A stretch of DNA of 59,997 bases from Chloroflexota bacterium. Its GTDB lineage: Bacteria; Chloroflexota; Anaerolineae; DTLA01. The translations under genes and the position numbers were made by a program. The stretch is taken from contig JADBJK010000047.1 in the NCBI GenBank assembly GCA_014874485.1, forward strand, positions 1 to 59,997. Reading direction: 5' to 3'. Each line of letters opens with the position of its first letter. The first letter of the stretch is position 1. Positions 75-59,905 of the stretch are shown in pieces. Under the pieces are notes generated by a model. That model worked only from the letters and a program-made list of their open reading frames with translations, was not told the DNA's origin and did no database searches.

Positions 75-905
75 ACTAAAGGGGCCAAGCCCTGCGGGCT
101 ATTCCAGCCCCAAGGGGGCTTCGTTCTTTCAGCGCGGGGGTTCAGCCCCGCGCGTGTCCGCCGTCGCCCGAGGCCAAAGCCGTCGGGCTAAAGGGGCCAA
201 GCCCTGCGGGCTACCAGCCCCAACGGGGGCTTGGCTGTTTCAGCGCGGGGGTTCAGCCCCGCGCGTGTCCGCCGTTGCCCGAGGCTGAAGCCGTCGGGCT
301 GAAAGGGCGAAGCCCTGCGGGCTATTCCAGCCCCAAGGGGGCTTCGTTCTTTCAGCGCGGGGGTTCAGCCCCGCGCGTGTCCGCCGTCGCCCGAGGCCAA
401 AGCCGTCGGGCTAAAGGGGCCAAGCCCTGCGGGCTATTCCAGCCCCAACGGGGCTTGGCCCGTTCAGCGCGGGGGTTTGGCCCCGCGCGTGTCCGCCGTT
501 GCCCGAGGCTGAAGCCGTCGGGCTGAAAGGGCGAAGCCCTGCGGGCTACCAGCCCCAACGGGGCTTGGCCCGTTCAGCGCGGGGGGTTTAGCCCCGCGCG
601 TGTCCGCCGTCGCCCGAGGCCAAAGCCGTCGGGCTAAAGGGGCAAAGCCCTGCGGGCTATTCCAGCCCCAAGGGGGCTTCGTTCTTTCAGCGCGGGGGTT
701 CAGCCCCGCGCGTGTCCGCCGTCGCCCGAGGCCAAAGCCGTCGGGCTAAAGGGGCCAAGCCCTGCGGGCTACCAGCCCCAACGGGGCTTCGTTCTTTCAG
801 CGCGGGGGTTCAGCCCCGCGCGGCGGCCTCGCCCGACCTATCGCGCCTTTCGCGCCCTTTCGCGGGTTTCGCGCGTTTCGCGATCCAAACGCCCCGCCCT
901 AGCAC
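75..905. repeat. Family A hairpin array, seven tandem copies
   Basis: The segment is a head-to-tail array of a unit that recurs every 110-114 bp. The GCGCGGGG-loop-CCCCGCGC hairpin starts near 131, 241, 353, 463, 573, 687 and 799. Each unit holds four successive hairpins: that one, a CCCGAGGC/GCCGTCGGG stem, a GGGC-loop-GCCC stem, and an AGCCCC-loop-GGGGCT stem. The array ends in a CTTTCGCGCC-rich tract (about 835-890) that ends other islands too. Small open frames inside are translations of the repeat and are not genes. Bases 1-74 show nothing recognisable. There are no unique spacers, so this is not a CRISPR array. Confidence 0.9.
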
Positions 906-7591: not shown

Positions 7592-8041
7592 CTACGTTCC
7601 GGACAGGCGCTTCCTGTACCAGGCCAGAAAGTCGCCTGGCGTGCCGATGGGGAAGGGCAATTGCCCTGCGCGTGGATTCCCAACCAGGTGCCTCTTGTCC
7701 AGCGACACGAAGTAGTCCATGCCCGCGGCCAGCGCCTCGGCCAGAACCTGGGCGTCGGGGAGATAGTCCACAACGGAGCACGCCTGCGACAGCACGTCGG
7801 GGGTTGCCGGCGGGCCCACCTGGACGTTGGCCTGGTGCAGCAGCAGGGCAAAGCGCGCCTTGCTCCCGGGCGACTTGCGGGTGAGCACGGCGTCGGCCTC
7901 GGCCAGCACCAGCGGCCCAACCCACAGCGACACCGCCCCCGCCTCGCCGAGTTTCAGGATCATGCGCGCGCCGCCCTCGTCCGAGGCAATGGCGGCGAAC
8001 AGCACGCTCGTGTCCAGGAAGACGCGCGGCTCACCGTCCAC
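7592..8041 (-). CDS. PIN-domain toxin (putative ribonuclease)
   Basis: A 149-residue PIN-fold protein. The acidic metal-binding set is visible: D10 in VFLDTS, E48 in PLVLAEADAVL, and D109/D115 in MDYFVSLDKRHL. PIN toxins of VapC type cut RNA, often tRNA. Its start lies 11 bp inside the end of the AbrB-type gene at 8031, so the two are one operon with the antitoxin first. The spacing and order are those of a type II toxin-antitoxin module. Confidence 0.87.
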   Translation of the reverse strand: MDGEPRVFLDTSVLFAAIASDEGGARMILKLGEAGAVSLWVGPLVLAEADAVLTRKSPGSKARFALLLHQANVQVGPPATPDVLSQACSVVDYLPDAQVLAEALAAGMDYFVSLDKRHLVGNPRAGQLPFPIGTPGDFLAWYRKRLSGT

Positions 8042-8285
8042 GGCTGTCGCGCTCCTCGCGAAGGGCCGCCAGCATGTCCTGGAGCGTCAGGCCGTCCTCG
8101 CCCCACTGGGCGGCGATGCTGTCGGCGATGGCGTCAATCTCGGAGCGCCGGGGGCTGAGCACGAAGACGCCGCCGAGGTCCAGCAGCGTGAACGTGTCGC
8201 CCGGCCGCAACCCGTAGGAATCGCGCACGGCCTTGGGGATGGAAATGACCCCCCGCTGCGCCATTTGCACCGTGATGGACCTCAT
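8031..8285 (-). CDS. AbrB/MazE-type antitoxin
   Basis: An 84-residue protein with an N-terminal SpoVT/AbrB swapped-hairpin domain: VQMAQRGVISIPKAVRDSYG followed by LRPGDTFTLLDLGGVFVLSP. The C-terminal 40 residues are helical and acidic, as expected for the toxin-wrapping tail. AGGAGGCG precedes the ATG. It should bind its own promoter; overlapping CTGA-based palindromes lie just upstream of its start. Confidence 0.88.
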   Translation of the reverse strand: MRSITVQMAQRGVISIPKAVRDSYGLRPGDTFTLLDLGGVFVLSPRRSEIDAIADSIAAQWGEDGLTLQDMLAALREERDSRGR

Positions 8286-8303
8286 GGCATCGCCTCCTGC
8301 GTT

Positions 8304-8354: not shown

Positions 8355-8650
8355 GGCGATTCGGAGCGCGAAGGGCACGAAACGACGCGAAATCCGCGGA
8401 AACCCCCTTCGCGTCTTTCGCGCCCTTTCGCGGATTTCGTGATCCAAACGCCTCCGCCCGCGGCCGAAGGCGCCGGTTGGGGGGCGGCGCGGCCCCGCGG
8501 TCGCCCGAGGCTGAAGCCGTCGGGCTGAGGGAGCGAAGCCCTGCGGGCTGCCAGCCCCCACGGGGCTTGGCCCGTTCAGCGCGGGGGTTCAGCCCCGCGC
8601 GGCACGCCCGCGGCCGAAGGCGCCGGTTGGGGGTCGTAGGGACGCAGGGG
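8355..8650. repeat. Mosaic repeat island (TTTCGCG tracts and family A unit)
   Basis: The island begins with GGAGCGCGAAGGGCACGAAA, a start shared with the island at 11625. It then has inverted CGCGAAA/TTTCGCG tracts, a CGGCCGAAGGCGCCGGTTGG element at 8460 that recurs at 8612, and one family A unit (8505-8600). There is no gene. It separates the toxin-antitoxin pair from the STAND operon. Confidence 0.8.
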
Positions 8651-8691: not shown

Positions 8692-9120
8692 CTACTTCGT
8701 TACTTTGTTGTGGTCGCCAGTGATGATGGTGCTGCCTGTGATGCCCCCCACATTGCTGAAACTGCGATTGCCCACGGAGATGGCCACCCCGTCAGCCTTC
8801 GCCACATCCAGGAGCCGGGCGACCTCGCCTGCCAGTTCCGGGTCTTCGCTGAGAATCTTTCTCAATTGCACGCGCAAGGCGGCCTGGGAATCCGCATCGT
8901 CAGGGTGGGTGGCCACATCCTGGGCGGCTTCCAGAGCGGCAGGGCTGGCCTCCACCTTGGGGCGAAGCGCATGCCACAGGTTGTTGGCGTGTTCCCACGC
9001 TTTCTTGCCGACTTTCTTGATCGCCTCCTGCACCGCGGTGTCCCTGGCCTTGGTCAAGAGGTAGGGAAGGACGGGAGCAAGAAGAGCCGTCGCTTGCTGC
9101 GCGATCTGATTGACATCCAT
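8692..9120 (-). CDS. Small helical protein with C-terminal GSTIITGDHN motif; candidate effector partner of the STAND NTPase
   Basis: A 142-residue protein of unknown family. Residues 1-115 are predicted helical by eye and include a hydrophobic N-terminal stretch (ATALLAPVLPYLL). The last ~27 residues switch to a Gly/Asn/Ser/Thr-rich beta-prone tail (VGNRSFSNVGG then GSTIITGDHN at 129-138). The STAND protein encoded 3 bp upstream has the matching GTLIVTGDSN at its N-terminus. A helical domain plus a short motif shared with the N-terminus of an adjacent NLR-like protein is the layout described for bacterial Bell-domain/amyloid-motif pairs. That identification is an inference; no catalytic residues are visible. 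Confidence 0.6.
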   Translation of the reverse strand: MDVNQIAQQATALLAPVLPYLLTKARDTAVQEAIKKVGKKAWEHANNLWHALRPKVEASPAALEAAQDVATHPDDADSQAALRVQLRKILSEDPELAGEVARLLDVAKADGVAISVGNRSFSNVGGITGSTIITGDHNKVTK

Positions 9121-9123
9121 TTC

Positions 9124-11532
9124 TCATCCTCCATTCGCGGAACGGGATTTGTCGCAGCCCAGGCGCTCAAGGGCCCGACGGATGTTTTCCCGCTCCCTGG
9201 GCTTCTGCGGCCGAAGTCGCAATGCCTCGCTGTAGTGCTCGCAGGCTTCTTGCAAGCGGTTCTGGCGCTCCAACAGTTCACTCGCGTAGAAGTAGTGGAT
9301 GTGGCTATTACCCGAGTCCAACTTCAAGGACTGTTGAAACGCCGCGTCCGCCACCTGAAAGCGCTTAAGGCGAGCCAAGGCTCTCCCTTGTATGCAGTAC
9401 AAAGCCGCGAGAGCCTTGTCGCCGCGAGCCTGTTGCAACGCTCGCTCGGTCATTTCAACGGCGCCTGCGGGGCCCAACTGCAATTCCATGAGGGCCCAGG
9501 CCTGCCAGGTTGGGGCGTTTGTCGGATCGGCCTGGGTGCCTTTCTGGAAGAGTTCGCGGGCCTTGTCTATGTTGCCGCGTTCTTTTTCCATGAGGGCCCA
9601 GGCCTGCCACACTGGAGCATGGCTCGGATCGGCCTGGGTGCCTTTCTGGAAGAGTTCGCGGGCCTTGTCTATGTTGCCGCGTTCTTTTTCCATGAGGGCC
9701 CAGGCCTGCCACACTGGAGCATGGCTCGGATCGGCCTGGGTGCCTTTCTGGAAGAGTTCGCGGGCCTTGTCTATGTTGCCGCGTTCTTTTTCCATGAGGG
9801 CCCAGGCCTGCCAGGTTGGGGCGTTTGTCGGATCGGCCTGGGTGCCTTTCTGGAAGAGTTCGCGGGCCTTGTCTATGTTGCCGCGTTCTTTTTCCATGAG
9901 GGCCCAGGCCTGCCAGGTTGGGGCGTTTGTCGGATCGGCCTGGGTGCCTTTCTGGAAGAGTTCGCGGGCCTTGTCTATGTTGCCGCGTTCTTTTTCCATG
10001 AGGGCCCAGGCCTGCCAGGTTGGGGCGTTTGTCGGATCGGCCTGGGTGCCTTTCTGGAAGAGTTCGCGGGCCTTGTCTATGTTGCCGCGTTCTTTTTCCA
10101 TGAGGGCCCAGGCCTGCCACACTGGAGCATGGCTCGGATCGGCCTGGGTGCCTTTCTGGAAGAGTTCGCGGGCCTTGTCTATGTTGCCGCGTTCTTTTTC
10201 CATGAGGGCCCAGGCCTGCCACACTGGAGCATGGCTCGGATCGGCCTGGGTGCCTTTCTGGAAGAGTTCGCGGGCCGCGGCAAAATCGCCCACCCGCTTC
10301 AAGGCGAGCGGCAGCAGGGTCAGCAACTTGCACTCGGGCAAGTGCGGGTTCTCGCGGAGGCAAACCCCCAGTGTGTCAAACAGCGCGGCATACAGGTACC
10401 GGGATTCCCGCACCCAGCCGTTTCGCTCGGCCAGGGCGAGGACGCGCTCCGCGATGACCGGGTGGCGCGTGTACAGGCGCTCCCCGTAGGCCTCCGTCAT
10501 CTCCAGCAGTTCGCCCTCCAGTGGCCTCAGAATGCGGGGGCCAACGTCGGCCGGGTCCATGCCGAGCGCGCGCGCATACAGCGAGCGAGACAGCCAGTAG
10601 CCAAAGCGGTGAACCGATGCGAGCACTGCGTATGCCTCAACCAGAAAGGATCCGTTATCAAAGCGTTCACGAACCTTCTTGAGGACGCTCTCCACAATGG
10701 CCTCAAAACTGGTTGCGCCGTGTCGTGCCGTCAGCAAGGCGGGCAGCAATTGTCCGTCGGCTTCCAGACGGTGTAGGAAGTGGCGCACCTGGCGCTCGCG
10801 CGGCATGTCCGCCAGCGCGTCAAGTTTCCCCGCAGCATCCAGGCGGTCCAGCAAGTCGTTGACCTCATCGGGTTGCAGCCGCGTGATGGCGAAGGGCTGG
10901 AGTCGGTATATCGCGCGGCGCAACTCCGGTTCAAGTCCGGCGTTGCGCCATTCGTGATGCCTGGATGCGGCAAGTATGGTGTAGGGGATGCCGAATTGGG
11001 TCAGATCGTTGGCAAGCGCAGGCAGGTCTTTCTCCTCATCCGCCTGGTCAAAGCAGATGATGAGCGGCCGGTCATACTCCGCGAAGTCCACCGCAGGCGT
11101 GCTGAAGGCCACACCCGAGTGCCGCCACAAGACAGGGTATCCCGCTTCTGCCAGATCCCAGGCCAGGCGCATCAGAAGGGTGGTCTTGCCCTCGCCCGCA
11201 AGTCCCAGGATGAGTGCCATTCGCTGCGCGGGTAGCGAGGGGTCTTCCACGAATCGGCGTATGTCCTGGTACAGGATGCGGCGGGCGTCCTCGGCTCTTG
11301 CGATGTTCACCCAGTTGGGCGGGGTGCCGTCGTAGAATGATGCAGGGGCACGGCTTGCCAGCACCTCGCGAACCTTCTGGTCCAACACGTGAAACCAGAA
11401 CGCATCGCCCCGGTTGAGAGAGATGAAATTGCTGTCGCCTGTAACAATGAGGGTGCCATTGGCATTGCCAGCCAGGGCTGCGGCGCGGCTGCCCGTGGCG
11501 AGAGCGAACCGCCTTTGCAATTCGGTCATCAT
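9124..11532 (-). CDS. STAND-type P-loop NTPase with near-identical TPR repeats
   Basis: An 802-residue NLR-like protein. The start is ATG 11532 (a second ATG follows at once), with GGAG upstream. Residues 22-40 carry GTLIVTGDSN, the motif also found at the tail of the next gene product. The NTPase domain has Walker A GLAGEGKT (110-117) and Walker B PLIICFD ending at D162. A ~250-residue helical region follows, then about eight TPR-like 34-residue repeats, seven of them nearly identical (MEKERGNIDKARELFQKG). The sensor face varies only at one hexapeptide, SHAPVW or TNAPTW. Two further TPRs close the C-terminus. STAND proteins oligomerise after ligand sensing; defence against phage is a likely role but is unproven. 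It leads a two-gene operon. Confidence 0.85.
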   Translation of the reverse strand: MMTELQRRFALATGSRAAALAGNANGTLIVTGDSNFISLNRGDAFWFHVLDQKVREVLASRAPASFYDGTPPNWVNIARAEDARRILYQDIRRFVEDPSLPAQRMALILGLAGEGKTTLLMRLAWDLAEAGYPVLWRHSGVAFSTPAVDFAEYDRPLIICFDQADEEKDLPALANDLTQFGIPYTILAASRHHEWRNAGLEPELRRAIYRLQPFAITRLQPDEVNDLLDRLDAAGKLDALADMPRERQVRHFLHRLEADGQLLPALLTARHGATSFEAIVESVLKKVRERFDNGSFLVEAYAVLASVHRFGYWLSRSLYARALGMDPADVGPRILRPLEGELLEMTEAYGERLYTRHPVIAERVLALAERNGWVRESRYLYAALFDTLGVCLRENPHLPECKLLTLLPLALKRVGDFAAARELFQKGTQADPSHAPVWQAWALMEKERGNIDKARELFQKGTQADPSHAPVWQAWALMEKERGNIDKARELFQKGTQADPTNAPTWQAWALMEKERGNIDKARELFQKGTQADPTNAPTWQAWALMEKERGNIDKARELFQKGTQADPTNAPTWQAWALMEKERGNIDKARELFQKGTQADPSHAPVWQAWALMEKERGNIDKARELFQKGTQADPSHAPVWQAWALMEKERGNIDKARELFQKGTQADPTNAPTWQAWALMELQLGPAGAVEMTERALQQARGDKALAALYCIQGRALARLKRFQVADAAFQQSLKLDSGNSHIHYFYASELLERQNRLQEACEHYSEALRLRPQKPRERENIRRALERLGCDKSRSANGG
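9487..10276. repeat. 102-bp in-frame tandem repeats encoding TPRs
   Basis: Units start every 102 bp (9487, 9589 and so on to 10201) and encode 34 residues each. Apart from a 16-17 base segment, they look identical by eye. That segment exists in two forms, read along the protein as S S T T T S S T (S = SHAPVW, T = TNAPTW). Such uniformity points to recent unequal crossover or gene conversion. Confidence 0.93.
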
Positions 11533-11624: not shown

Positions 11625-11870
11625 ATTCGGAGCGCGAAGGGCATGAAACGGCGCGAAGTGCGCGAAACCCAATTCGTCCCCTCACCCTAGCCCTCTCCCG
11701 CACGCGGGCGAGGGGACGCGCGTCGCACCGCCCGAGGCTGAAGCCGTCGGGCTGAAGGAGCGAAGCCCTGCGGGCTGCCAGCCCCCACGGGGCTTGGCCC
11801 GTTCAGCGCGGGGGTTCAGCCCCGCGCAGGCTTTCGCGCCGTTTCGCGGGTTTCGTGATCCAACCTCTCC
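11625..11870. repeat. Mosaic repeat island between divergent STAND and capsid genes
   Basis: GGAGCGCGAAGGGCATGAAA opens the island, as at 8355. A CCCTCTCCC tract, one family A unit (11728-11828) and a TTTCGCGGGTTTCGTGATCC tract follow. Bases 11871-11971 hold CCGCGGGCATTCGCGGAGG-like sequence and the capsid ribosome-binding site (CAGGAGG). No gene is present in the island. Confidence 0.8.
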
Positions 11871-11971: not shown

Positions 11972-13906
11972 ATGACGCAAATCCGCATCACCAACGCGCT
12001 GGACGCGGCGCGGGTCCCGGGCGCCACGCGCGAGGTGGAGGTTACCCTCATCCGCCCGGGCCTCAGCCTCAACGGGTGGCTGTGGACGCCGGAGGTGCTG
12101 GCCGAGGCCGCGCCGCTGTTTGAGGGCGCCACCGCCCTCATGGACCACGCCCCGCCCGGCCAGCACCCGTCGGTGCGGCAGGCGGTGGGCGCGTATCACT
12201 CGGTGCGCGCCACGCCCGACGGCCTCAAGGCCCGCCTGGCGTTCCTGCCCTCGGCCACGGACGCCTGGCACCTGGCGCGGGATTGCGTCCTAGCCCGCGA
12301 GCGCGGCCGACCCGTCCCCAACGTGGGCATCAGCGCCGACGTAACCGTGGAGTCGCGCCCGGTGCGCTACGGCGGACGCCCCGCCCGCCTGGTGGAGCGC
12401 ATCGCCGCCGTCCATTCCGCCGACATCGTCCTGCATCCCAGCGCCGGCGGCAGTTTGGATCGCATCGCCGAAGCCTACGACGCGGCGCGGCTGGAGTTGC
12501 ACCGCGGAGACGCGGAGGACACGGATGCAGGAACTGGACATGAGGAGTGGCACTGGAGAGACGCAGAGTATGCAGAGAAAGGAGTGAACGAGATGGAGAA
12601 CAGGGCAAACGAATCGCTGAACCGGCAAGCCGAAGTGCACCGCGGGGCCGCAGAGAGCGGCGAGGGGACGGCCGTCTTTGACTCCCTGCACCCCGGCGGC
12701 GAATCCATGCCGCGCCCGACGGGCCTGGAGACGGCGAAGCCGCTGGCCGCGCGCGAGTGGACGGGGGCCGCGCCGACCGTTGCGATGGGCCTCAGCCCCG
12801 ACGACGCGGTGCGTGCCGCGTGCTACCGTGCCTTCGGCATCGCGCCCGAGCACTGGGAGCCCGAACTGCGCGCCGCCGAGAGCCGCCTGGGCAACGGGCG
12901 CGTGCGGCCGTTCCTGGGCCTGCGCGACCTGTACGTGCACATCACGGGCGACTACGCCATCGCGGGCCGCTTCTGGGCGCGAGCGCAGGAAGCCGCCATG
13001 CTCACCACCGACCTGCCCAACCTGCTGGCCGACACGCTGAACAAGAAACTCCAGGTGGAGTACAACCACTATCCCCAGGACTGGCGCAAGTGGTGCAGCG
13101 TCGTGTCCATCCCCAGCCTGTCCGAGCAGGACAGCGTGCAGTTGGACGACCTGGGCGCGCTGCCTGAGGTGGCCGAGGGCGACCCGTACACCACCGCCGC
13201 GCTGGACGAGTTCAAGGCGTCGTACACCCCCCACAAGTACGGCGAACTCATCACCATCACGCGGGAGATGATCCTGCGGGACGATTTGCGGGGCCTGGCG
13301 CGGATTCCGGGGAAGTTGGCCCAGGCTGCGGCGCTGCGCCTGAACGACACGGTGTACGGCCTGGTGGAGGACAACACGACCATCTACGACGGCAAGGCGC
13401 TGTTCCTGGGGACGAGCGACCGCGGCGCGGCGGGGAACCTGGCGTCGGGCGCGCTGGACCCCGACTCGCTTGCCGACGCGCTGAGCAAGTTGCGGCGCGT
13501 GCGCGGCGGGGCCAACGCCAGCCCCATCGTGTTCCGCAGGGTGTGGCTGGTGGTGCCGCCCGCGCTGGAACTCACCGCCGCGCAACTGTGCGGGAGCGCC
13601 TACGCCTGGGGAGGGCAGGAGCCGCCCGCCACCGGCTACAACTTCTTCCGCCAGAGCGGGCTGGACTACATCGTGGCCCCGTGGAACGATTCGCAGGAGA
13701 AGTGGTGGATCGTGGGCGACCCCGCCGACTGCGCCGGGCTGGAAATCGGGTTCGTGCAGGGGGTGGACTCGCCGCAGTTGTTCATCCAGGACGACCCACG
13801 CGTGGGGAGCGTGTTCACCCACGACCAGATTTCGTACAAGGTGCGGTTTGAGTTCGGCGCGGGCATCGTGAACTGGCGGCCGTTTGTGGGGTACATGGGG
13901 GCGTAG
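11972..13906 (+). CDS. Orphan phage prohead protease-major capsid fusion protein
   Basis: A 644-residue phage-type protein starting at ATG 11972 behind CAGGAGG. Residues 1-175 resemble prohead proteases (VTLIRPGLSLNGWLWTPEVL, then LFEGATALMDHAPP and VGISADV). Residues ~285-644 resemble an HK97-fold or Mu gpT-like capsid (YNHYPQDWRKWC, FKASYTPHKYGELITITREM, FQ-type end VNWRPFVGYMG). In between, residues ~176-235 are encoded by sequence like the intergenic family B repeat (CACCGCGGAGACGCGGAGG), which gives HRGDAED- and HRGAAES-type peptides. No terminase, portal, tail or integrase gene is adjacent. It may be a domesticated shell, a remnant, or a satellite element; encapsulation has not been shown. 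Confidence 0.75.
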   Translation: MTQIRITNALDAARVPGATREVEVTLIRPGLSLNGWLWTPEVLAEAAPLFEGATALMDHAPPGQHPSVRQAVGAYHSVRATPDGLKARLAFLPSATDAWHLARDCVLARERGRPVPNVGISADVTVESRPVRYGGRPARLVERIAAVHSADIVLHPSAGGSLDRIAEAYDAARLELHRGDAEDTDAGTGHEEWHWRDAEYAEKGVNEMENRANESLNRQAEVHRGAAESGEGTAVFDSLHPGGESMPRPTGLETAKPLAAREWTGAAPTVAMGLSPDDAVRAACYRAFGIAPEHWEPELRAAESRLGNGRVRPFLGLRDLYVHITGDYAIAGRFWARAQEAAMLTTDLPNLLADTLNKKLQVEYNHYPQDWRKWCSVVSIPSLSEQDSVQLDDLGALPEVAEGDPYTTAALDEFKASYTPHKYGELITITREMILRDDLRGLARIPGKLAQAAALRLNDTVYGLVEDNTTIYDGKALFLGTSDRGAAGNLASGALDPDSLADALSKLRRVRGGANASPIVFRRVWLVVPPALELTAAQLCGSAYAWGGQEPPATGYNFFRQSGLDYIVAPWNDSQEKWWIVGDPADCAGLEIGFVQGVDSPQLFIQDDPRVGSVFTHDQISYKVRFEFGAGIVNWRPFVGYMGA

Positions 13907-35574: not shown

Positions 35575-36510
35575 GGCGGGGGCGGGCGTTCGGATCACGA
35601 AAGCCGCGAAAGGGCGCGAAAGGCGCGAAATGGGGGCCGCGCGGGGGTGGCGCGCGGGCCGCGCGGGGCTGAACCCCCGCGCTGAAAGGGCGAAGCCCCG
35701 CTGGGGCTGGGCGCAGCCCGCAGGGCTTTGCCTATTCAGCCCGATGCTTCAGCGTCGGGCGGGGGCGGGCGTTCGGATCACGAAACTCGCGAAAGGGGGC
35801 GAAATGCGCGAAATGGGGGCCGCGCGGGGGCGGCGCGCGGGCCGCGCGGGGCTGAACCCCCGCGCTGAATGAACGAAGCCCCGCTGGGGCTGGGCGCAGC
35901 CCGCAGGGCCTTGCCTATTCAGCCCGATGCTTCAGCGTCGGGCGGGGGCGGGCATTTGGATCACGAAATCCGCGAAAGGGCGCGAAAGGCGCGAAATGGG
36001 AGCCGCGCGGGGTGGCGCGCGGGGGTGAACCCCCGCGCTGAATGAACGAAGCCCCGCCGGGGCTGGGCGCAGCCCGCAGGGCCTTGCCTATTCAGCCCGA
36101 TGCTTCAGCGTCGGGCGGGGGCGGGCAGGCGTTCGGATCGCGAAACTCGCGAAAGGGGGCGAAATGCGCGAAATGGGGGCCGCGCGGGGGTGGCGCGCGG
36201 GGGTGAACCCCCGCGCTGAATGAACGAAGCCCCGCTGGGGCTGGGGCGTGCGTGGGGGGAGGGCCAGGGTGAGGGGCAAACCTGCGACGCACCTCCGAGG
36301 TGCGTCGCAGGTGCAATCTCCGCCCCTACGGGCAGCCCGCAGGCCTTTGTCCCTTCGGCCCGACGGCTTTAGCCGCGGGCGGCGGGACCGCGCGGGGGTG
36401 GCGCGCGGGAGGGCTGGCCCCGCCGTCCCCTCTCCCGCCGGGAGAGGGCTAGGGTGAGGGGCGTTCGGATCACGAAATCCGCAAACCTGCGACGCACCCC
36501 GTAGGCGCGT
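35575..36510. repeat. Large mosaic repeat island (family A in reverse, families E and others)
   Basis: Four tandem ~185-bp blocks (about 35575, 35760, 35945 and 36115). Each holds a CGGATCACGAAAxxCGCGAAAGG tract, a GCGCGGGGCTGAACCCCCGCGC-type hairpin and a family A unit in inverse orientation to that at 75-905. A family E palindrome follows at 36280-36312, then a further unit and a CCCTCTCCC-CCGGGAGAGGG hairpin (about 36418-36450). No gene is supported in the 1.05-kb gap 35486-36536. Confidence 0.85.
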
Positions 36511-47331: not shown

Positions 47332-49647
47332 ATGTCCAAGAAACTCATCGCTGCACTAGGGTTCTGCTTTGTCCTGCTGTTGGCCGCAGCGCTGATGGCA
47401 GGCTGCGCTGGCCCTCAGGGCCCCGCCGGCCCTCAAGGTCCTGCTGGCCCTCCGGGCCCTGCCGGTCCTCAGGGTCCTGCCGGCCCTACTACCCTCGTTA
47501 CGCTGCCCAGCCAGCCCGAGACTTGTACCGTCTGCCACAAGCGCGCGGGCGCCACGCACCAGACCTACTATGACCAGTTGTATCAGGATGGCGTCATCAA
47601 GGTTTCCGACATCACCTACTCGTTCACGCCGCCCGATACCAGCAAGGTCAGTTTCAAGTTGACCAAGAACGGCGCCCCCTTTGACGTGCGGCAGGCGGAC
47701 TCGTGGGCCGTGTACTTCGTACCCTACGCCGATTCCAAGTTCCAGTTTGAGCCCGCCCGCGGCCGTCTGTCCCTGAAAGGGAAGACCACCTATGACGGCC
47801 AGGGCGTTGCGACGACTGTGGTTACCGGCACCACGAACCTGGCGGCCATGAACGGTCTCATCGTCGTGTACGGCACGGATGAGATCGTCGGCAGGCTGCC
47901 CGCCCGCGTCAGCCAGGGCAAGTACCCGTTCGTGGGGATGAAGGAAACCGGCAAGGGTGTGGACTACACGTCCCCGGCCAACGTTGCGGGCTGCGAGAAG
48001 TGCCACACGGTGCCCTACCTGAAGCACGGCTACATCTATGCCCAGGTTGATGGCGACCCGGCAACGGACTTCTACACCTGCAAGGTCTGCCACCTGGACA
48101 ACGGCGAGGGCGGCCACTTTGAGTGGCAACTGCTGGTTACCGATCCGGCCAAGGCAATTCCGGTCCTGGAGAGCGAAGAGAACGTAACGCCTGAGATCAA
48201 GGCCCAGTTTGCGTACAAGACCACGGTGATGAACGACGTGCACATGTCGCACGCCATGGAGTTCCCGTATCCGCAGTCTATGGCCAACTGCGTAACCTGC
48301 CACGAGGGCAAACTGGACAAGATTCTGGCCGACGCGAACTTCAAGACGGAAGTCTGCAAGAGTTGCCACCCGGTAACGAGCGTTGAGGGTCTGGAGACCC
48401 ATGCGCCCGCGCTGAAGGGTATCCTGCCGTCGCCCATCCATGACAACCTGGACCTGAACACCGTGGATTGCACCACCTGCCACGGCGAGGGCAAGGCGGC
48501 TCGTGGCTTCAGCAAGATCCACACCGGCTACGACAAGGCCATCTACACCGCATCTGGCCAGAAGTACTCGGACGCCATCAAGGTCAGCATTGACAGCGCG
48601 TCCTTCGCCGACAACAAACTCACCTTCGCCTTCAGCGCGGCCGAGGATCCCGACCTGGAAGGCGTCAACGCGGCGGACATCGTTCCGACCGTGCTGGTCA
48701 GCCTGTACGGGTGGGACACGAAGGACTTCGTCCTCGGCGGTCATGAGCGCCTTGTGGACACCAACGGCGACGGCAAGATTGACCGCAACGACCAGCCGAT
48801 CCTGGAAGCCGCGCTGGGCGAGGAGCACCCGAACGTCAAGGTAACCTCAACCGGCGCCGGCAAGTGGGAGGCGACGTTTGACCTGTCCCAGTGGGCCGAC
48901 CTGCTGACCAACGGCTCCGTGAAGCGCGCGGAGGTCGCGGTCATGCCGGCTCTGAAGAACGCGGACGGCGTTATGGTCGCCCTGGTCGCCCCGTCCCGCA
49001 CCTTTGACTTCGGCGCCAACGCCTTTGACGACAAGTTCAACAAGCCCATCGTCAAGGTGGCCGACGGCTGCGACAACTGCCACGGCGCGCTGGGCACCAC
49101 GTTCCACACGCCAGATCGCGGCGGCAATGCGGTCGTCTGCCGCATGTGCCACATCACCAAGAGCGGCGCTGCCCATCTGGAGATGCAGTCGCGGTCGCTG
49201 GATTCCTACATCCATGCGACCCATGCGATGCAGCCGTACGACGTCGGCAGCATTGACTTCGCCGACCCGGTGCAGGCCATGCACTACGAGCACCACATTG
49301 AGTTCCCGTTCCCGACGCATGGTATCACCAACTGCGAGGCCTGCCACGTCAAGGGGACCTACGAGGCTGCGAGCGAGACCAAGTCGCTGCCCGGCCTGCT
49401 CTCGGCCAGCGCGACCCTGAAGAATCGGACCCGGAACATCGGTGCTGTTCCGTCGTATGTTACCGGTCCCGGCTCCAGGGCCTGCGGTGGCTGCCACCGG
49501 GCCGTCGCGATCAACGAGGATGCCGTTGGCGAACTGGTGGCCTTCAATGTGCACACCCAGAACGGCGGCTACCTCGTGGAAGCGGGCGACAAGCCTGTGG
49601 ATACCCTCATGAAGGTCATTGACGAGGTCATGGGGGCGTTCAAGTAA
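47332..49647 (+). CDS. Decaheme c-type cytochrome lipoprotein (OmcA/MtrC-like)
   Basis: A 771-residue exported protein. The signal peptide ends at lipobox LMAGC (C25), directly followed by a 26-residue collagen-like Gly-Pro stalk (residues 27-52, GPQGPAG repeats). Ten CxxCH heme sites are seen: CTVCH, CEKCH, CKVCH, CVTCH, CKSCH and CTTCH, then after a ~200-residue heme-free domain CDNCH, CRMCH, CEACH and CGGCH. That arrangement and size match OmcA/MtrC surface cytochromes of extracellular electron transfer. An EF-hand-like DTNGDGKIDRND lies in the middle domain. No porin or partner cytochrome is adjacent. Confidence 0.92.
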   Translation: MSKKLIAALGFCFVLLLAAALMAGCAGPQGPAGPQGPAGPPGPAGPQGPAGPTTLVTLPSQPETCTVCHKRAGATHQTYYDQLYQDGVIKVSDITYSFTPPDTSKVSFKLTKNGAPFDVRQADSWAVYFVPYADSKFQFEPARGRLSLKGKTTYDGQGVATTVVTGTTNLAAMNGLIVVYGTDEIVGRLPARVSQGKYPFVGMKETGKGVDYTSPANVAGCEKCHTVPYLKHGYIYAQVDGDPATDFYTCKVCHLDNGEGGHFEWQLLVTDPAKAIPVLESEENVTPEIKAQFAYKTTVMNDVHMSHAMEFPYPQSMANCVTCHEGKLDKILADANFKTEVCKSCHPVTSVEGLETHAPALKGILPSPIHDNLDLNTVDCTTCHGEGKAARGFSKIHTGYDKAIYTASGQKYSDAIKVSIDSASFADNKLTFAFSAAEDPDLEGVNAADIVPTVLVSLYGWDTKDFVLGGHERLVDTNGDGKIDRNDQPILEAALGEEHPNVKVTSTGAGKWEATFDLSQWADLLTNGSVKRAEVAVMPALKNADGVMVALVAPSRTFDFGANAFDDKFNKPIVKVADGCDNCHGALGTTFHTPDRGGNAVVCRMCHITKSGAAHLEMQSRSLDSYIHATHAMQPYDVGSIDFADPVQAMHYEHHIEFPFPTHGITNCEACHVKGTYEAASETKSLPGLLSASATLKNRTRNIGAVPSYVTGPGSRACGGCHRAVAINEDAVGELVAFNVHTQNGGYLVEAGDKPVDTLMKVIDEVMGAFK

Positions 49648-53559: not shown

Positions 53560-54537
53560 CTACCGCAGGCGGGCGAGGATCGCTCCGGGGTTGTCCACTT
53601 CCCCCAGCAGGTCGCGCGAGAACCGCAGCCGGTTGCCGCGGAGGTCCAGTTTTTTCAGATTCCTCAGGTTGGCCAGTTCGCGCGGCACCCAGTGCATCTG
53701 GTTCTCCTGGGCGTTGAGTTCCTCCAGGTTCGCCAGGCGGCCGATCTCCGGCGGCAGCCCGATCAGTTGATTGAACGCGACGACCAGCGTGCGGAGCCGA
53801 GACAGTTGGCCGATTTCGGGCGGCAGCGTCATCAGATCGTTGGCGTACAGGTTGAGCACCTCCAGGCTCGCCAGTCGGCCAATCTCCGGCGGCAGGTCCA
53901 TGAGGATGTTATCCGACACGTCCAGCGTGCGGAGTCGCGACAGGTTCCCGATCTCCGGGGGCAGTTGCCCGAGTCGGTTCTGGCTCAGGTCCAGCGTCTC
54001 CAGGTTCGTGAGATGGCCGATTTCCGGGGGCAGGGTGCTCAAATCGCTTCCGCTTAGGCTCAGGTAGCGCAGCCGGGTCAGGCGGCCAATCTCCGGCGGC
54101 AATGCCGCGATGTGGTTGGCGGTGAGGTCCAGCGTCTCCAAGTTGGCCAGGTTCCCGATTTCGGGCGGCAAGGCCTTCAGCCGATTCACGGCGACGTCCA
54201 GGGTTTTCAGCTGGCCCAGGCGTCCGATTTCCGGCGGCAGCGCGGTGAGGTGGTTGGATACCAGTTTCAGCGTGCGGAGCCGCGACAGTTGGCCGATTTC
54301 GGGCGGCAGTGTTTCCAGTGCGCTGGTCATAACGGACAGGGATTCCAAACTGGCCAGTTGGCCGATTTCCGGCGGCAGCGTCGTCAGGGGATTGCCGCCC
54401 AGATCAAGCGAGCGGAGTTCTGTGAGCCGCGCGATCTGCGGCGGGAGCGCCGTCAGGTCCTTGTAGCCCAAGTCCAGCGAGGCCCAGCGTTTGTCTGCAG
54501 CGCGCTGGAGGAGGGCGAGGAGTTCTTGCTCGTCCAT
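53560..54537 (-). CDS. Leucine-rich repeat protein
   Basis: A 325-residue protein starting at ATG 54537 behind GAGG. After a ~20-residue head (MDEQELLALLQRAADKRW), it consists of about twelve 23-residue LRRs of the bacterial LPPEIGxLxxLxxLDL type, closed by LRGNRLRFSRD. The repeats are very regular at both protein and DNA level. No signal peptide or membrane segment is seen, so it is cytoplasmic. LRR proteins usually bind other proteins. The gene lies alone between two inverted MITE-like elements, which suggests an acquired or mobilised cassette. Confidence 0.88.
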   Translation of the reverse strand: MDEQELLALLQRAADKRWASLDLGYKDLTALPPQIARLTELRSLDLGGNPLTTLPPEIGQLASLESLSVMTSALETLPPEIGQLSRLRTLKLVSNHLTALPPEIGRLGQLKTLDVAVNRLKALPPEIGNLANLETLDLTANHIAALPPEIGRLTRLRYLSLSGSDLSTLPPEIGHLTNLETLDLSQNRLGQLPPEIGNLSRLRTLDVSDNILMDLPPEIGRLASLEVLNLYANDLMTLPPEIGQLSRLRTLVVAFNQLIGLPPEIGRLANLEELNAQENQMHWVPRELANLRNLKKLDLRGNRLRFSRDLLGEVDNPGAILARLR

Positions 54538-59519: not shown

Positions 59520-59905
59520 GCAAACCTGCGACGCACCTCCGAGGTGCGTCGCAGGTGCAACCCGCGCCAGGGCAGGGTCAGGCGTTCGGATCGCGAAGCC
59601 CGCGAAAGGGGGCGGGGTGGCGACGCGCGGGGCTAAACCCCCGCGCTGAATGGGCGAAGCCCCGATGGGGCTGGGGCAGCCCGCAGGGCTTTGTCCCTTC
59701 AGTCCGACGGCTTCAGCCTCGGGCGGGGTGGGTGTCGCCGCGTGGGGCTAAACCCCCGCGCTGGATGGGCGAAGCCCCGATGGGGCTGGGGCAGCCCGCA
59801 GGGCTTTGTCCCTTCAGTCCGACGGCTTCGGCCTCGGGCGTGTCGCCGCGCGGGGCTAAACCCCCGCGCTGAACGGGCGAAGCCCCGTTGGGGCTGGGGT
59901 GCGCC
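59520..59905. repeat. Mosaic repeat island (family E, then inverse family A)
   Basis: A family E palindrome occupies 59524-59556 (ACCTGCGACGCACCTC, one C, then its reverse complement). A CGTTCGGATCGCGAAGCCCG tract and three inverse family A units follow (GCGGGGCTAAACCCCCGCGC hairpins near 59627, 59741 and 59850; spacing ~112 bp). Confidence 0.85.

Follow-up and report, generated by a model that had tools for sequence, protein, structure and literature searches.

This locus raises the question of what a bacterial gene could gain from a run of almost identical TPRs that differ from one another in a single small patch, and whether the genes around it give this arrangement a meaning. The gene lies in a window of 59,997 nucleotides (the whole stretch of DNA that was analysed) from a member of the Chloroflexota class Anaerolineae. 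It has a small partner gene on the same strand, and the features of both are collected in Table 1.

Table 1. Features of the receptor gene, its partner and the flanking repeats (positions in the window).
Feature	Position	Strand	Remarks
STAND/NLR-type receptor gene, 814 aa	9124..11568	-	N-terminal motif, nSTAND_NTPase5, TPR/HAT array
N-terminal amyloid-like motif of receptor, residues 22-51 (ALATGSRAAALAGNANGTLIVTGDSNFISL)	11416..11505	-	match to partner C-terminus
nSTAND_NTPase5 domain, residues 77-211	10936..11340	-	Pfam PF25199, E 9e-26
Walker A GLAGEGKT of receptor	11182-11205	-	canonical GEGKT
Near-identical TPR array, 102 bp, 7.8 copies	9484..10276	-	Tandem Repeats Finder
Repeat unit 1, SHAPVW	10135..10236	-	starts residue 445
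Repeat unit 2, SHAPVW	10033..10134	-	starts residue 479
Repeat unit 3, TNAPTW	9931..10032	-	starts residue 513
Repeat unit 4, TNAPTW	9829..9930	-	starts residue 547
Repeat unit 5, TNAPTW	9727..9828	-	starts residue 581
Repeat unit 6, SHAPVW	9625..9726	-	starts residue 615
Repeat unit 7, SHAPVW	9523..9624	-	starts residue 649
Partial unit 8, TNAPTW, then diverged C-terminal TPRs	9484..9522	-	starts residue 683
Bell-like effector gene, 142 aa	8692..9120	-	3 nt downstream of receptor gene
Helical domain of effector, residues 1-109	8794..9120	-	AlphaFold2, pLDDT 72-95 by 10-residue block
C-terminal amyloid-like motif of effector, residues 113-141 (AISVGNRSFSNVGGITGSTIITGDHNKVT), predicted disordered	8698..8784	-	match to receptor N-terminus, model
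Left copy of 103-bp direct repeat	8502..8603		98% identical to right copy; brackets gene pair
Right copy of 103-bp direct repeat	11729..11831		brackets gene pair

Judged by its domain content, the receptor is an NLR-type STAND protein. Pfam places TPRs C-terminal to the nSTAND_NTPase5 domain, and this combination of a STAND NTPase of NLR type with C-terminal repeats is one of the features by which BASS pairs are recognised. In the AlphaFold2 model (mean pLDDT 85) the NTPase leads into a long helical superhelix of TPRs, for the most part with pLDDT >90. A sequence search of the PDB with an alignment of the NTPase gave weak matches only, mostly at the P-loop, and the best solved structure spanning both the NTPase and the TPRs is human SAMD9 (9zjr; Z 18.2, rmsd 4.8, 435 aligned). 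SAMD9 is STAND-like and has an antiviral function (PMC5445408), and SAMD9 and SAMD9L have the NTPase and TPR fold in common with the receptor and, presumably, an immune role as well. However, SAMD9 is devoid of the Walker lysine (GG for GK, PMC5445408) while the Walker A of the receptor is canonical, and its AlbA, Sir2-like and OB domains have no counterpart among the 25 Pfam matches listed; on these grounds the likeness is to be considered as resemblance and not as membership. PADLOC returned no convincing defence-system match on the locus: its PrimPol and PDC-M71B matches on the TPRs were rejected, as was a weak match of mad8 to the P-loop.

The partner gene appears to encode the effector. 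Its AlphaFold2 model consists of a helical bundle at residues 3-109 and a disordered tail at residues 117-142. No credible Pfam family was found for it (DUF5995 stays below the cut-off, and none of the Pfam matches is to a Bell profile), and nothing significant came out of fold searches with the model, the E values being no better than 0.7 and the Z scores no higher than 3.6; HeLo and MLKL are absent among the fold matches listed, which in itself proves nothing. In 16 of 17 members of the family hydrophobicity is highest at the N-terminus, with KD19 values of only ~0.8-1.5 (0.97 in the focal protein, up to 1.49 in its relatives); the usual cut-off for a transmembrane segment is higher than the focal value. 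Of the 396 genomes of the class, 58 have a homologue at E 1e-5, some of the weak matches possibly being due to the motif alone, as this is included in the search alignment. In many loci of the class the homologue directly adjoins a STAND-type ORF. Gene coordinates, model and homologues agree on a small helical effector gene next to the receptor, as in BASS pairs. In L059, L062, L063, L070, L076 and L082 the Bell-like domain, the motif and a Walker A NTPase are fused into one protein.

The two proteins are connected by a short amyloid-like motif. Alignment of the effector tail AISVGNRSFSNVGGITGSTIITGDHNKVT with the receptor N-terminus ALATGSRAAALAGNANGTLIVTGDSNFIS reaches a score of 57, which was attained in none of 20,000 shuffles. 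Relatives of the receptor extend this observation. The single receptor protein, used as a query, found no related loci, but the NTPase alignment retrieved eleven close orthologues (L085-L095), all from metagenome-assembled Chloroflexota genomes (Anaerolineae, Ardenticatenia and similar), and two distant matches outside this phylum. An HMM built from Bell-like proteins matches the N-terminal motif in 9 of these 11 orthologues (best E 4e-5). Within the receptor motif, G34, T43, G44 and N47 are invariant in five orthologues, and G34, G44 and N47 in ten. Across 13 partner pairs, the motifs of true partners resemble each other more closely than those of partners exchanged between pairs (permutation p = 1e-5), and the pairs included in this test have distinct types of motif, such as VNI.QAGIVQ (L081) and a D.S.I.GV.Q type (L078); the motif types thus covary between partners across the 13 loci. 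Shuffles, permutation and HMM cross-matches all point to one motif at the effector C-terminus and the NLR N-terminus, which is another feature of BASS pairs. Motif families other than the focal one, the two types just named among them, are common to Bell-like and neighbouring STAND-type proteins at L078, L081, L064 and L071.

In some orthologues, a TIR domain takes the place of the effector gene: TIR_2 (E 1e-26) is fused ahead of the motif in L087, and by inspection a TIR domain is likewise fused in L089, the motif being kept in both. The shared motif, the linked effector and the TIR fusion are the features that characterise amyloid signalling by NLRs in described systems (PMC7889193, PMC8086366), and the locus has the gene-pair architecture of HET-S/NWD2 and BASS/Bell. 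According to what two reviews relate of the BASS NLR/Bell pairs (Dyrka et al. 2020 via PMC7889193, PMC8086366), these also consist of adjacent genes sharing a motif between effector C-terminus and NLR N-terminus, with a small helical effector and TIR as an alternative effector. There are differences as well. The focal locus belongs to the Anaerolineae, whereas the reviews speak chiefly of Actinobacteria, Cyanobacteria and some Archaea; its receptor has nSTAND_NTPase5; the gene order is NLR and then Bell; and the receptor bears near-identical repeats with a variable patch.

It is in these repeats that the locus stands out. Tandem Repeats Finder and the 814-aa reading frame both agree with the original prediction of near-identical 102-bp TPR units in the order S S T T T S S T, where S denotes SHAPVW and T denotes TNAPTW. 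Units 1-7 are 100% identical at the nucleotide level outside one 14-nt patch, which holds 8 differences (p ~1e-6 for 8 random differences all landing inside 14 nt). Partial unit 8 matches the array units over its first 39 nt only, and unit 0 over its last 40 nt only. Variation had been expected over a window of six codons; the two cassettes are indeed the predicted ones, and the only two types in the array, but just three of the six residues change, with A, P and W constant, S/T, H/N and V/T varying and one additional silent codon change. The seven 34-aa units are at least 91% identical in amino acids and at least 92% in nucleotides, which exceeds the 85%/100-aa mark of fungal-type repeat conservation. 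Within the same genome, seven other TPR loci have a best self-identity of 0.19-0.43, compared with 1.00 in the receptor array. The DNA of the 102-bp unit was not found in viral contigs.

The patch was predicted to lie in the sensor, and its place there can be specified. The variable residues are TPR positions 33, 34 and 3; in the predicted superhelix, 33 and 34 are situated just ahead of helix A and residue 3 within its first turn. In TPRs, variability is greatest at positions 2, 5, 9, 12, 13, 33 and 34, all of them on the concave, ligand-facing side (PMC1261162), and by this numbering patch positions 33 and 34 face the ligand. Orthologues vary at this patch too. In L094, ten near-identical units share a nearly constant backbone and carry the cassettes NDAVSW, KHAPTL, KNAPTL and KHAPVW, and L085 varies at the focal patch and at other sites. 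By TPR numbering, variation is concentrated at ligand-facing positions, as in fungal-type repeats.

The array contains no synonymous difference outside the patch, indicating a recent expansion, and its two cassettes are just three residues apart. Both facts would suit the view that an ordinary TPR scaffold protein recently underwent neutral tandem duplication, with the patch not under selection. This seems unlikely, since independent orthologues, ~45-57% identical, have their variable site at the same patch (in L094 all three focal positions are within the six most variable, p = 0.003, the cut-off of six having been picked post hoc), since no such homogenisation is seen in the other TPR proteins of the genome, and since the receptor has a STAND domain, a motif and an effector partner.

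How the cassettes came to be distributed is another matter. They were thought to have been copied as blocks, but the order of runs is indistinguishable from random (runs test p = 0.37), so that the focal array alone does not support block copying. A related system offers a clear block duplication: L055 (6047-9490, +), a more distant WD40 NLR of the same class with an N-terminal motif of the same kind, has a sensor of eleven or twelve near-identical units, in which a block of four (RP, DA, NW, DE) occurs twice in succession and the most variable sites are 7, 8, 10, 26 and 28, as in HNWD. Diversity-generating retroelements (DGRs), which act on STAND sensors in multicellular bacteria (PMC10907252), could also be imagined to have written the patch. 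Those systems resemble the focal one in that the sensor of a STAND receptor diversifies rapidly, but they rely on reverse transcription of C-type lectin folds (PMC10907252), whereas no RVT_1 reverse transcriptase was matched in the assembled focal genome and a DGR origin was rejected for this reason; two discrete cassettes with changes beyond adenines make it highly improbable too.

A more serious possibility, though not the one we consider the likelier, is that the repeat family is real while the assembly itself produced the number of units and their order (S S T T T S S T), its path through the graph of near-identical units having collapsed or invented some. Arrays of this sort are not assembled reliably from Illumina reads, and units may be omitted or created (PMC12222747). 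The source genome is in 122 contigs, 6 of the 11 orthologue contigs break off within the array at 107-528 bp past the NTPase match, and L090 and L091 are out of frame within it. The focal array, on the other hand, is intact, in frame and has diverged caps at both ends, and a uniform backbone with a variable patch recurs in the read-through relatives L085, L094 and L055. Because short-read misassembly of NLR repeats is known and orthologue arrays are broken or out of frame, the focal copy number and order are provisional; if the genome was assembled from short reads, array length and cassette order may be in error (PMC12222747). This is compatible with the explanation of the locus as a two-gene NLR module, and both may hold.

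The surroundings of the gene pair bear on its possible mobility. The direct repeats that bracket it belong to a dispersed GC-rich family of ~110 bp (window 76-836, 8502-8603, 11729-11831, 35660-36245 and 59610-59899), of which many tens of copies are present in the source genome and in both same-genus genomes. Neither the receptor gene nor the Bell-like gene was found in these two genomes, with the exception of a weak motif-only match to the latter in one of them (G001). A Phage_capsid_4 gene (Pfam E 2e-39; 11972-13906, +) adjoins the receptor gene, and this neighbour is present in G001, which is without the receptor pair. No clean empty site was found in G001: the capsid-side flank is conserved and the other flank is different. 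Gain or loss of the gene pair by recombination between the direct-repeat copies is plausible. A PIN-domain toxin and a MazE-type antitoxin lie beside the pair (window 7592-8290, -). Elsewhere, the window contains an 18-bp tandem repeat, GGCCCTCAGGGCCCTGCC (47407-47487), collagen-like if translated, and a 138-bp tandem repeat (53713-53964), leucine-rich-repeat-like in appearance.

Presence and absence of the pair at the genus level could also mean that the same machinery serves kin or self/non-self recognition between filaments and not phage defence. There is a direct parallel with fungal HET-E/HET-D, and such a role has been proposed for diversified STAND systems of multicellular bacteria (PMC10907252). 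Yet the bacterial STAND proteins characterised in the part of the literature that PMC10907252 cites act in phage defence, and a role in kin recognition is regarded here as rather improbable.

The parallel with fungal NLRs, already drawn in the original prediction, is well supported and reaches further than was foreseen, since it extends to the amyloid-like motif shared by the two proteins and to the effector partner. Fungal NLRs (HNWD, NWD2/HET-S and those with TPR or ANK repeats; PMC4986451, PMC12222747) likewise have repeats >85% identical, variation limited to a few exposed positions and a link through an amyloid motif with a neighbouring effector gene. The differences are that the focal system is bacterial, with an nSTAND_NTPase5 NTPase, and that its TPRs are of 34 aa, whereas 42-aa TPRs are common in fungi (PMC4986451, PMC12222747). 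The locus is a bacterial amyloid-motif NLR pair, the receptor of which has fungal-style, internally conserved and patch-variable repeats. Near-identical variable repeats are not described for bacterial amyloid-motif NLRs in the literature covered, which takes in the primary 2020 work through reviews.

It is fairly probable that the two genes form an NLR-type immune or self/non-self module, in which a ligand-triggered receptor signals by amyloid templating to a Bell-like effector and is diversified by repeat recombination. The STAND NTPase would be kept in check until the TPR superhelix binds a proteinaceous ligand. The ligand-bound receptor would then oligomerise and gather its N-terminal motifs, which could fold as a cross-beta seed and template the matching C-terminal motif of the Bell-like protein. 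The helical domain of the latter would subsequently act as the effector, most likely as a membrane-disrupting cell-death domain. On the side of the sensor, recombination among near-identical 102-bp units may homogenise the repeat backbone, while selection may maintain alternative residues at the one exposed patch. Ligand specificity could thus be changed through the number and order of units, and exchange between identical units, if such shuffling is ongoing, would retune the sensor with the reading frame intact.

It is tempting, but quite tentative, to extend this to the Anaerolineae as a whole, which would then possess a class-wide, recombination-diversified NLR repertoire built from TPR and WD40 units, exchangeable Bell-like or TIR effectors and covarying amyloid tags, for an adaptive-like recognition of non-self or kin. 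If the proposed module is real, three hallmarks of fungal allorecognition NLRs would co-occur in bacteria, namely near-identical shuffling repeats, hypervariability at the ligand face and an amyloid hand-off to a neighbouring effector. The diversification of bacterial receptors by repeat recombination would become directly testable, and the many natural motif pairs are offered for the study of signalling specificity.
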